35,658 nt of DNA. Source: Gemmatimonadota bacterium. Its GTDB lineage: Bacteria > Gemmatimonadota > Gemmatimonadetes > Longimicrobiales > Longimicrobiaceae. Shown in pieces: positions 22,823 to 26,974 of the stretch. Both the position numbers and the translations under genes were made by a program. Location of the stretch: positions 1-35,658 of the forward strand of contig JAIRKD010000071.1 in the NCBI GenBank assembly GCA_031260285.1, in the 5' to 3' direction. The notes beneath the pieces were generated by a model. That model was given only the letters and a program-made list of their open reading frames with translations. It was not told the origin of the DNA and made no database searches. Position 1 is the stretch's first letter, and the number at the start of each line of letters is the position of its first letter.

Positions 22823-22858
22823 GATAAAGGGGCGAACTGACTGGTTCGCCCCTTTATC
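22823..22858. terminator. Bidirectional terminator after mrp
   Basis: A perfect 15-bp stem, GATAAAGGGGCGAAC (22823-22837) with its complement at 22844-22858, has a 6-nt loop. The A/T-rich stem ends suit termination from mrp and, on the minus strand, from the envelope operon. No separate T-run is present on the + side. Confidence 0.75.
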
Positions 22859-22959: not shown

Positions 22960-23193
22960 TCAGCTGTCCAGCCATTTCTGGTCAGCCGCTGAAATCCGCC
23001 GGCGGTTGCGCGATCTGTCGATCAGCTTGAGAACAAACCAGCCGATCAGCAGGACAGGAGCGACCTTGAAGAGGAGGAACCCGACAAGGCCGAAGGTGAT
23101 GGACAGCACCGCGCCCGCAATCGCGAGCACCACGCTGATGGCGACCAGGCCGATCATCCCCGCGACCAGAATCGCGATAAGAGTTCCGAGCAT
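22960..23193 (-). CDS. Small two-helix membrane protein, unknown function
   Basis: This 77-residue protein has two hydrophobic helices covering roughly residues 3-30 and 34-56, then a basic cytoplasmic-type tail (KLIDRSRNRRR) ending WLDS. I do not recognise a family. The frame is open to 23304, but GGAGG lies 9 bases before the ATG at 23193 and the earlier residues are not membrane-like. It sits 98 bases downstream of the toastrack gene on the same strand, as the probable last member of the envelope-stress operon, and is followed by a bidirectional terminator. Confidence 0.65.
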   Translation of the reverse strand: MLGTLIAILVAGMIGLVAISVVLAIAGAVLSITFGLVGFLLFKVAPVLLIGWFVLKLIDRSRNRRRISAADQKWLDS

Positions 23194-23291
23194 CTGAGGG
23201 TACCTCCGGATTGAATTTACGCCGGGCAGAAACCGGTCATCCTGATGATACAAAATGATACGAAAAATGTGCTCCGGGGTTTCGTCTGCTG

Positions 23292-24194
23292 CTATTCGAT
23301 CCACTCAACCGTCACAGATCCGAGAGCTGCGCTCAGATCAATCGTGAGCTGTGTTGAGGTGGTGTTCCAGTTGGCACTGAAGTAACTGTTGTCCTTCTGC
23401 TCCATCTCCGGCGCCGAGAAGCTCGAAAGGACAGAGCTCCGGTGGATCTGCACACCCAGAGCCCGAGGCAGGCGGATGGTTACGGATCCCACACCCATCT
23501 CGATGGAGGCGTTGGCGTTCTGAACCCAGTCACCTCCGAAGTCCAGAACCGTTGAGCCCATTCCACCTTTGAAACGGATCATCCGGGCGCGGGCGTTTCC
23601 CAGATTGTGGACGGTCAGCTCCGCCGCCCCGGCCGTGATACGGACAGCCTCCGCCATCAACGGGTTGGCGGATCCGAAAGAAACGGTTGTCTCGCTTGCG
23701 CCCGTCGAAAGAGAGAGGTTCCGGAGCGACAGCCCTCCCAGCTCGATATCCGCCCGGCCCAGGCCGAATTTCAGATCCAGATCGAGAGGGACGGTTCTTG
23801 TCAGGGCAATGAGGGCGGATGACCCCTCCCGCGAGTTCCGGCGTTCGCGGTCGCGTACGGAAGGCACACCGAGGTGCAGGGTTCCGAGTTCCTCGCTGAA
23901 ACGGATGACCGGCTCAATCACGCGCTGGTCGTACGTCAGCTCCATCCGGTAGAGCGTGGGTGCCTCCGCCGGCCTCAACTGGAGCCTTCCCCCTCCGAAC
24001 TCAACCGTTACATCAAGCGGCCGGTCGCTCCAGAGCTGGCGCTCCGAGGTCAGCAGGTGACGGTTCTGCGCCTCGAGTGTGCGGGTGACGGGAGTACCGG
24101 TAATCAATAACCCGCAGAGAATGACTGCCGTCCTCACCAGCGTTGAGAGTGTGATCCGGAAGCTGCCGCCCGCCGAAACACACGGATCAGACAT
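23292..24194 (-). CDS. Toastrack-domain (DUF2154/LiaF-like) exported protein
   Basis: This 300-residue protein has an N-terminal hydrophobic segment (about 19-40) that should act as signal or anchor. A long repetitive beta-rich region follows with the character of toastrack/LiaF-type domains: alternating short strands such as LDLDLKFGLGRADIELGGL, TTVSFGSAN and ASIEMGVGSVTIRLPR. Such domains are linked to cell-envelope stress systems (LiaF, PspC-linked proteins). GGAGG is 6 bases before the ATG at 24194, which decides this start over ATG 24200. It overlaps the stop of the bactofilin-like gene by 8 bases. The exact domain match should be confirmed by profile search. Confidence 0.75.
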   Translation of the reverse strand: MSDPCVSAGGSFRITLSTLVRTAVILCGLLITGTPVTRTLEAQNRHLLTSERQLWSDRPLDVTVEFGGGRLQLRPAEAPTLYRMELTYDQRVIEPVIRFSEELGTLHLGVPSVRDRERRNSREGSSALIALTRTVPLDLDLKFGLGRADIELGGLSLRNLSLSTGASETTVSFGSANPLMAEAVRITAGAAELTVHNLGNARARMIRFKGGMGSTVLDFGGDWVQNANASIEMGVGSVTIRLPRALGVQIHRSSVLSSFSAPEMEQKDNSYFSANWNTTSTQLTIDLSAALGSVTVEWIE

Positions 24195-25317
24195 CCTCAT
24201 CCTCCAGGAGAGGATCGATGAAGAAAGATGGATCATCAAAGCTTCCGGCGTTCCCGGCGGGCCTGGCATGGCTGGCGCGCAGTCCGCCCCGGGCGAGGAT
24301 GGTCGCGCCAAGCCCTACCGCGGTTGCCACCAGGATCGCGAAGATGGTCACCACACGGAGCAGCAACCCGATCACACTCAGGAACCCCGTCATGGAGATC
24401 AGGTGTGAGACAATCAGCGGCACGATCAGGACGCCGGTCCCCAGGAAGAGGTATGAGTAGGAGTTCCGCTGCCGGATGTTCCGGTTCTGCTCCGCGGTCC
24501 GTTCCCCGATTGCGTGGGCGGAAGCCAGAAGGCCGAAGATCAGCCCTCCGAAAATGACCAGCGGGTAGAGGGGGATGGCCACAAGCAGCAGCGGGATTCC
24601 CACAATTGAAACCGCCAGCGTAACAATCAGTACGACAAAGACGGGCAGGATCAGGAAAACAGCGGCGAAACCCGTTGCGGCGGCTTTTACCGTGGAGGCA
24701 CGGATGGTGTCACTTACGGCTTCCAGCTGAGGTCTCGCATAGAACACGAGAGAGGCGCCGATCCCCATGAGTACAAGCCCGAAGGCCAGCGTTGAAAGAA
24801 TTCCAACACGGTGACGCTGAAAGCCGCTCTCGCGGTCTTCGCGAGGGCTGCGTGCTTCACGTCCGGTGAGTCCTTCCGTATTCATACCGGCGGAGACGGA
24901 TCCTGCCGCAGCTTCTGAGCTGCTGATCGAGAGCATTTCGCCCCGTACACGGCCCCCTTCATTCACAATCCGACCGTTGGTGACGAGTGCATCACCCAGT
25001 ACAACTCCTGTCTTCTCCAGGACGAGATCACCGTTGAAGACCGCAGCATCACCCTTTACCTCACCGCCGATCCGCAGGTCACCGCCAACCACCACAATCC
25101 CGTCCACAGTTGTTCCGGCTTCAACCGTGTGGTTGCCGGTTACGGATAGGGCCGGGAGGGTCTTTCTGACGCGGGCTTCTGTCGGAGCGGAAACGGCATC
25201 CGACCTGGTCGCCTCAGGGGTGGCCTGACCGGCAAGCGAGAGAGGGAAGGTGCTGATTGCCAGATACGCCGGAATCAGCCACCAGCGGGTATGCCGCGAG
25301 CCGGGCTCAGTTCGCAT
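24187..25317 (-). CDS. Bactofilin-like repeat protein with C-terminal membrane domain
   Basis: This 376-residue protein has a signal-type segment (12-30). Next comes a glycine-spaced beta-repeat region (about 60-130; TTVDGIVVVGGDLRIGGEVKGD and similar steps) like the right-handed beta-helix of polymer-forming bactofilins. A charged linker (about 145-170) follows, then about five membrane helices (roughly 171-193, 212-238, 240-268, 287-307, 311-345) and an acidic tail ending DEDV. The beta-repeat part would lie outside the cytoplasm, unlike classic cytoplasmic bactofilins. It overlaps the anti-sigma gene by 11 bases and the toastrack gene by 8, so the three are coupled. Function unknown; context suggests sensing or stabilising the envelope. 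Confidence 0.75.
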   Translation of the reverse strand: MRTEPGSRHTRWWLIPAYLAISTFPLSLAGQATPEATRSDAVSAPTEARVRKTLPALSVTGNHTVEAGTTVDGIVVVGGDLRIGGEVKGDAAVFNGDLVLEKTGVVLGDALVTNGRIVNEGGRVRGEMLSISSSEAAAGSVSAGMNTEGLTGREARSPREDRESGFQRHRVGILSTLAFGLVLMGIGASLVFYARPQLEAVSDTIRASTVKAAATGFAAVFLILPVFVVLIVTLAVSIVGIPLLLVAIPLYPLVIFGGLIFGLLASAHAIGERTAEQNRNIRQRNSYSYLFLGTGVLIVPLIVSHLISMTGFLSVIGLLLRVVTIFAILVATAVGLGATILARGGLRASHARPAGNAGSFDDPSFFIDPLLEDEDV

Positions 25318-25969
25318 AGGTCACTCTTCCGGACCAGGATGATCGGGTCAGTCTGATGAGGCCCCAGAGAGAGAGCGGCATGCCGAGGGTGAAAACCAGA
25401 GCAGCCGCGGCAAGCGCAACCGGGGGAATTGTCTCGAATGCGGAGTATGCCGTCGTCAGAGCGTTCCGGACTTCCGGGCTGTTCAGCTGGTTGATCAACC
25501 AGCCCAGCGCTCCCTCGTTAACCACCTGAACCCGGGGGAGGAGCCACTCCCAGAGCACCGCCGGTGTGGCAAGGGGCTGACTGAAGATGAGGCCTGCAAC
25601 CACCATCAGGGCAACGGCGGGGGCGGAGATTGTGGCGCCGAGCACCGCCCACCCGCTTCGGGAAGCGAGGAGCTGACCAAATGAGCTCCCGCGGGCGGGC
25701 ACTGCCTGTTGAGAGAGGTCCACCCGCGCCATGACCGCGTCCGCAAACCGCGCCGAAGGGGCGAACCGGGGCAGCTGATCAAGCGCCGTCATGAGCTTCC
25801 GGGTGTGATCCACCTCCTGAGTGCATCGCTGGCAGCGGCTCACATGCTCCCGGACCTTCCGCGTCTCCATGCCCGGGAGTTGATCCTCGGCAAACTGTTC
25901 GAGGATCGGTGGGATCGGGTGTGCGGGCTTCCCGGACGGTTGATCGTTCCTGATATCGCGATGGTTCAT
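25307..25969 (-). CDS. Zinc-finger (ZAS/zf-HC2) anti-sigma factor with two membrane helices
   Basis: This 220-residue protein is the probable inhibitor of the ECF sigma encoded just upstream. The N-terminal anti-sigma domain holds the HXXXCXXC zinc motif HVSRCQRC (His42, Cys46, Cys49). Two hydrophobic segments lie at about 108-130 and 183-206, with about 50 residues (including a Leu/Asn-rich stretch) between them on the outer side, so both ends should be cytoplasmic. Most ZAS anti-sigmas have zero or one helix. The start at 25969 lies 33 bases after the sigma stop. It overlaps the next gene by 11 bases. Confidence 0.87.
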   Translation of the reverse strand: MNHRDIRNDQPSGKPAHPIPPILEQFAEDQLPGMETRKVREHVSRCQRCTQEVDHTRKLMTALDQLPRFAPSARFADAVMARVDLSQQAVPARGSSFGQLLASRSGWAVLGATISAPAVALMVVAGLIFSQPLATPAVLWEWLLPRVQVVNEGALGWLINQLNSPEVRNALTTAYSAFETIPPVALAAAALVFTLGMPLSLWGLIRLTRSSWSGRVTYAN

Positions 25970-26002
25970 AGCCGGAACTACGATGTACGGGTGGGAGGAG
26001 TT

Positions 26003-26608
26003 TCACATCCCGACGCGCAGGTGAGCCAGCAGCTGCTTCAGCTCGTTCCTCGCGCGGTGGAGATGGGTTTTTATCGTTCCCAGCGGCATGCCCATGATCC
26101 CGGCAATTTCCTCGTACGGGCGGCCTTCGACGTGACGCAGGAGAATGGCGGTCTGGTACTCGGGGCGCAGCATTCCGATTGCGCGCTCAAGTTCCTCCCC
26201 GAGTTCCCGGGCCAGCAGCTGCTCTTCGGGGTTTTCATCCCCGGAGGCAACGGTGATCCGTGACGCGGCGATCTCGTCTTCACTTGTCGCTTTGCGCGAG
26301 CCGTCCAGGGAGATCGTCCGGAGCTGCCGCTTGCGGAGAGTATCAATCGCCAGGTTGCTGCCGATCTTGAAGACCCAGCTGGAGAATTTGAACTTCGGGT
26401 TATACCGGTCGAGATGATTGAAGACCTTTACGAAGGTCTCCTGGGCCAGATCCTCCGCCAGCTCCCGATCCCGAACCATACGATAGATGAGCGAGAACAC
26501 CGGCCGCTGGTAGCGGTTCAGGAGCTCCCGACACGCCCGCTCGGAACCCGCCTGAGCAAACGCGATCAGTTCATGATCGGTTGAATGGATCAGATCCAGG
26601 GTATTCAA
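26003..26608 (-). CDS. ECF (RpoE-like) RNA polymerase sigma factor
   Basis: This 201-residue extracytoplasmic-function sigma factor has region 2 at about 23-95 (LAEDLAQETFVKVFNHL, then SSWVFKIGSNLAIDTLRKR) and region 4 at about 143-195 (LRPEYQTAILLRHVEG, YEEIAGIMGMPLGTIKTHLHRAR). It should direct the operon that starts with itself and continues into the anti-sigma, bactofilin-like and toastrack genes. The start is TTG: the codon just before it is a TGA stop and no ATG lies early in the frame. GGGG lies about 8 bases upstream. The acidic-basic linker between regions 2 and 4 is about 45 residues. Confidence 0.94.
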   Translation of the reverse strand: MNTLDLIHSTDHELIAFAQAGSERACRELLNRYQRPVFSLIYRMVRDRELAEDLAQETFVKVFNHLDRYNPKFKFSSWVFKIGSNLAIDTLRKRQLRTISLDGSRKATSEDEIAASRITVASGDENPEEQLLARELGEELERAIGMLRPEYQTAILLRHVEGRPYEEIAGIMGMPLGTIKTHLHRARNELKQLLAHLRVGM

Positions 26609-26974
26609 TCAGAATCCCCGCGACCCCGATGCCGGCCGGGTCCGACAGCGGCCCGGATGGTAGTTGTCCGGGTCATGAATCGCCGGATGGAAGCTGGTAA
26701 TGACAGCGGTCATATATCTCGGGTAATCATAACGTTGATCCGGGCACCGGAGTTTCATGCTGACGCAGCTGCTGGTTCCGGAGTCCGCCTGTCCGGCTGT
26801 TGATTCCCGGTCTTCCGGTGTTCTCCATGACTCCTTCCGGTATTCATCCAGCTCTCTTCAGGTGATGGCTGCACAGCTTCCCTTCGCCGTCACACGGCTC
26901 TCCGTGGATGGCGAACAACGATCCGGCGGGCTACCTTCCAGCCTCACTCGCACTGGTACACCGGGACAGGACGA
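26609..26974. other. Divergent intergenic region between ECF sigma and ubiE
   Basis: About 366 bases without a supported gene. It should carry the promoters of the sigma operon (-) and the quinone operon (+). The only A+T-rich patch is about 26709-26733. On the minus strand GGAACC occurs at about 26773-26778 and could be an ECF -35, but I find no convincing matching -10. No strong hairpin was seen. Confidence 0.45.

Follow-up and report, generated by a model that had tools for sequence, protein, structure and literature searches.

A predicted SigW/PSP-like sigma factor module with a new membrane component in the phylum Gemmatimonadota

In B. subtilis, SigW controls pspA-ydjGHI, yvlABCD, which includes the toastrack protein YvlB, and yknWXYZ (PMC3498285). 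YvlB was found to interact with PspA and LiaH (PMC9239133). A survey of PSP systems described toastrack operons that include a linked sigma factor and have ties to membrane-stress regulators and PspA; it regards the toastrack as intracellular, and its main text names neither bactofilin nor Gemmatimonadota (PMC11237479). Work on the PSP response comes mostly from a few model lineages. Here, we analysed a 35,658-nucleotide contig of a Gemmatimonadota bacterium (JAIRKD010000071.1; hereafter, the window) together with its relatives, and we predict from sequence that the window carries a genuine SigW/PSP-like sigma module that spans the phylum and includes a new membrane component. This provides predictions of the sigma factor, its promoter and a large part of the regulon in the PSP/SigW-like response of an entire, mostly uncultured phylum, with an uncharacterised five-helix membrane family at the core of that predicted response. 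The sigma factor, the promoter motif and PspA are testable in a heterologous host.

The locus resembles the SigW/RsiW regulon of B. subtilis (PMC3498285) in that SigW is the closest NCBIfam model of its sigma factor, its promoter motif is similar to the SigW consensus, and the SigW regulon holds pspA, the toastrack operon yvlABCD and the yknWXYZ exporter. It differs in that the toastrack lies inside the sigma operon, a five-helix hybrid protein is added, the anti-sigma factor has two helices, and a conserved promoter separates sigma from anti-sigma. A toastrack tied to a sigma factor and PspA is shared with the toastrack-centred PSP-like systems, whose toastrack is intracellular (PMC11237479), whereas the free-standing toastrack described here has a signal peptide. 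Bactofilins (PF04519) are the best profile and PDB match of the short beta repeat, which is of the right type; unlike in bactofilins, the repeat follows a signal peptide, covers ∼75 aa, scores under the cut-off, is fused to five membrane helices and is replaceable. With LiaF and VraT, the locus shares a LiaF-like C-terminal domain and the envelope-stress setting, but it has neither a fused membrane domain on the toastrack nor a two-component system in the operon. The original prediction had suggested an undescribed system; the functional logic is known in kind, whereas three features are new within the open-licence literature searched: the layout of the operon, the link between sigma, promoter and PspA across the phylum, and the five-helix protein.

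Five open reading frames, all on the minus strand, were confirmed between positions 26608 and 22960 of the window, and the five same-direction genes with 8- and 11-base overlaps that had been predicted were recovered. The first gene (26003..26608) encodes an ECF sigma factor of 201 aa with a TTG start. It is followed by a membrane anti-sigma factor (25307..25969) with an N-terminal HxxxCxxC zinc domain and two hydrophobic segments. The hybrid gene (24187..25317; 376 aa) overlaps the anti-sigma gene by 11 bases and the toastrack gene by 8 bases, the latter (23292..24194) running from an ATG at 24194 to 23292 and encoding a free-standing exported LiaF-C/DUF2154-like protein with a signal peptide. 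The last gene (22960..23193) encodes a small two-helix membrane protein with a C-terminal AADxKWL motif, which occurs in only part of the phylum; its Pfam and NCBIfam matches were dismissed as noise. A perfect 15-bp inverted repeat (22823..22858) between this gene and a convergent Mrp-like gene likely ends transcription in both directions, and it was not flagged in a terminator scan of the window region. No sigma-70 promoter was found in the same region. The reading as a five-gene operon stood in part: the five genes form a syntenic, predicted sigma-controlled module, but an internal promoter-like motif splits sigma from the other four.

In the profile search, the sigma protein matched Sigma70_r2 (E 3.8e-19) and Sigma70_r4_2 (E 1.9e-18), which places regions 2 and 4 of an ECF sigma factor within a protein of ∼200 aa and bears out the ECF call. 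It also matched the NCBIfam SigW model at 2.5e-45, yet under the equivalog cut-off of that model. The anti-sigma protein matched Pfam zf-HC2 (E 0.0076) and an NCBIfam anti-sigma model (E 4e-11), both times under the cut-off, so that the zf-HC2 profile proposed as a check did find the protein, but at a sub-threshold score. The predicted two-helix zinc anti-sigma was confirmed by the HxxxCxxC motif, present in 20/21 anti-sigma sequences, and by two hydrophobic segments in most of them; the N-terminal zinc domain and a gene that adjoins sigma in nearly all loci are those of a ZAS-type factor. In one relative (L042), the anti-sigma no longer has the HxxxCxxC zinc ligands, and the operon is kept.

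The SigW consensus is TGAAAC-N16-CGTA. A motif of the form GAAAC-N16..18-CGT[AT] was found in the sigma/anti-sigma junction of 77 of the best 80 loci (0.27 expected by shuffling) and upstream of sigma in 27 of them (0.19 expected). These 80 loci, nearly all labelled Gemmatimonadota, were the best from a scan of the genome collection in which the sigma alignment served as the query, the five-helix domain being short of conserved stretches. Both sites are present in the window on the minus strand: the junction site TGAAAC-N17-CGTA (25979..26005) and a weaker promoter-like site, TGAAAC-N17-CGTT (26731..26757), upstream of sigma. The -35 element sits on the sigma TGA stop codon in many junction sites, including that of the window. 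Because the motif is conserved in the junction, sigma is predicted to direct the synthesis of both its anti-sigma and the envelope proteins, most likely by driving the anti-sigma/bactofilin/toastrack unit from the junction site. A further TGAAAC-N17-CGTT match was observed at 3208-3182 of the window, minus strand.

In 14 genomes with sigma, a strict form of the motif, GAAACC-N16-CGTAG, picked after the operon sites had been seen, occurred at 129 sites and its reversed pattern at 7. In seven genomes that lack a sigma ortholog, with a paralog at about 1e-42 to 1e-45 as the best match or no match at all, the counts were 4 and 7, respectively. The contrast in enrichment between the two sets was significant (Fisher p 4e-6), and the enrichment was seen again in 41 close relatives. 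The genes downstream of 95 motif sites form recurring families, namely PspA, HlyD/MacA adaptors, ADOP/MacB permeases (named by eye), sigma, anti-sigma, M48 protease and YggT. When the search was started from pspA, 20/30 orthologs had the motif within 1 kb upstream, against 0 for the reversed motif and 0 for the opposite strand, while 10/30 pspA loci had no motif. In the window genome, the motif is followed by a small membrane/coiled-coil ORF, with pspA (PspA_IM30, E 2.2e-45) coming after it. A looser form of the site lies upstream of yidC. PspA is therefore present and, as judged from the motif, co-regulated, as in a PSP response. The promoter motif shared by pspA and exporter genes supports the predicted envelope-stress role under sigma control.

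The five-helix domain was identified in 206/249 phylum genomes sampled (194/227 good ones) and in 94/112 genera, nearly always as a single copy. The gene order was the same in 20/20 sampled relative loci, with hybrid and anti-sigma in all and the toastrack next in 19, the exception being L032; the neighbourhood thus holds together, and its members are not scattered in relatives, the outcome that would have refuted the original prediction. The sigma search gave no separate sigma ORF for L034, but further searches located the gene at the corresponding position in the genome of this locus, G056. Among the 56 named loci that have at least 3.8 kb of downstream DNA, anti-sigma was present in 55, the hybrid in 54, the toastrack in 39 and the small protein in 18. 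The ubiE gene adjoins the operon in 77 of the best 80 loci, normally divergent beside sigma. G029, a relative from the same genus as the window genome, carries the operon, and no plasmid relatives were found. As gene order and the ubiE neighbour are conserved, the genes appear to form a core locus passed on by vertical inheritance.

The hybrid combines a signal peptide, as judged from its sequence, with a beta-solenoid (aa 57-131), a disordered linker and five long helices (aa 165-341); solenoid and helices were mostly modelled by AlphaFold2 at pLDDT >90. Against Pfam Bactofilin (PF04519), the whole protein scored 19.8 bits (E 9e-4) and its beta domain alone 23.5 bits, both short of the curated cut-off of 27.9 that would place the window hybrid among the bactofilins. 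Across the family, 13/15 isolated beta domains matched PF04519 (best E 2.7e-7), and the best PDB match of the beta domain is bactofilin 6ria (E 0.006). The predicted bactofilin-like beta-repeat fused to about five helices was therefore upheld by family profile matches and confident helices, with the window protein itself remaining below the cut-off. No second bactofilin-family match was obtained in the window genome at E 0.001. Bactofilins are cytoplasmic and polymer-forming; the signal peptide argues for export of the beta domain, and signal peptides support the idea of exported beta-rich proteins in the module. The topology is based on signal peptides and a reading of charges, of which the positively charged residues preceding helix 1 are at odds with the positive-inside rule if the N-terminus is exported.

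The beta domain was found in 55/76 relatives, a few of the others being hybrids shortened by contig or frame errors. A coiled coil stands in for it in L036, L039, L043, L045, L051-L055 and L119, two hybrid-family members match Pfam Trimer_CC, and other relatives have hardly any ectodomain. The five-helix domain remains constant where the beta domain is swapped or lost, and it has no convincing match in Pfam or PDB. With the hybrid as query, Foldseek had no hits at E 0.001; the weaker ones listed were judged meaningless. As far as these comparisons go, the beta domain is dispensable. Because beta domain and coiled coil interchange while the five-helix domain stays, the ectodomain is best read as an oligomerising scaffold. 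Most hybrid families (e.g. L033, L043, L050) have an extra N-terminal domain of ∼130 aa (DGxVxVDGxxxGxY...AWRxLL) before the beta domain or coiled coil, which is absent from the window hybrid and its nearest relatives.

The toastrack call survived both profile search (LiaF-like_C, E 2.9e-6) and comparison with 4qrk, a solved toast-rack structure (profile E 1.4e-27; Foldseek E 2.9e-14), and LiaF-like_C was matched by 18/20 toastrack members. Many relatives without the toastrack retain the rest of the operon. Gemmatimonadaceae loci including L073, L076, L086 and L091 have the hybrid gene and no toastrack; in L086, an Mrp-like ATPase gene comes next on the opposite strand.

Gene order, the promoter motif and its dependence on the presence of sigma, the signal peptides and the domain swap are read from sequence; the activation signal, the contact of sigma with its promoter, the clustering and the effector roles are inferred. 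The locus probably serves as a module for envelope-stress homeostasis in Gemmatimonadota under the control of an ECF sigma factor, with the hybrid and the toastrack as stress-induced effectors. The membrane-anchored zinc anti-sigma would hold the SigW-like sigma until envelope damage frees it, a step suggested by the family. Freed sigma would then use the promoter that begins at the sigma stop codon to transcribe the anti-sigma gene, as negative feedback, and the genes of the hybrid, the toastrack and the small protein. Elsewhere in the genome, it would transcribe pspA, MacA-type exporters, the M48 protease and others. The five-helix domain may be the working part of the hybrid, clustered by the exported beta-solenoid or coiled coil, and the toastrack may be a soluble periplasmic partner; both proteins most likely act as stress-induced envelope effectors.

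It is also quite possible, if somewhat short of probable, that the hybrid and toastrack are co-sensors that attach to the membrane part of the anti-sigma and determine how stable it is, much as LiaF acts on LiaRS. The three proteins belong to one predicted sigma-dependent unit and the toastrack is LiaF-like. Moreover, one clade (L109, L118/G027, G004, G048) has lost the hybrid and toastrack genes, its anti-sigma has shrunk to an 81-aa zinc domain without helices, and sigma and the junction site are retained. The tree makes this co-loss a single event and rules out several independent ones; it therefore hints at, but does not prove, a joint function of the hybrid or toastrack with the membrane part of the anti-sigma. 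Many relatives without a toastrack have a full anti-sigma. A broader reading is tentative and rather unlikely: that the five-helix protein is a new membrane-stress component which combines a membrane domain without known relatives, and an interchangeable exported scaffold that clusters it, with a role as co-sensor of the two-helix anti-sigma, and which links this anti-sigma to PspA via the exported toastrack.

The original prediction regarded the surface beta-solenoids themselves as sensing or patching the envelope. The beta domain does follow a signal peptide, is confidently modelled and occurs in most relatives; its replacement by a coiled coil or its loss where the five-helix domain is kept, along with the many loci without a toastrack, leaves this role unsupported and distinctly unlikely. 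That the locus is a bactofilin-type cell-shape module which is merely sigma-regulated is highly improbable: although bactofilin is its closest match, the beta domain follows a signal peptide, is short, scores under the Pfam cut-off and is often absent, and the genes found to share the motif were pspA and exporter genes rather than cell-wall genes. The motif could also belong to another ECF factor, which would leave the operon unrelated to pspA: ECF factors can have similar -35 elements, and the sigma-promoter link is predicted from sequence. This appears very unlikely because the enrichment is gone in genomes without sigma, even though a related ECF factor is retained in most of these.

In several genomes, a CesT/YbjN-like gene separates the motif from pspA; in others, this position is taken by a small TM/coiled-coil gene, in a PspB-like layout (L160, L214, L221, L231, L254). 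ADOP/MacB-type permease genes were repeatedly found downstream of the motif (L205, L209, L215, L244, L246, L247), with several such sites per genome in G049, G055, G056 and G088. At one site (L186; G000:C55), the motif is followed by a repetitive coiled-coil protein with an apolipoprotein-like repeat and then by a class C beta-lactamase-like gene.
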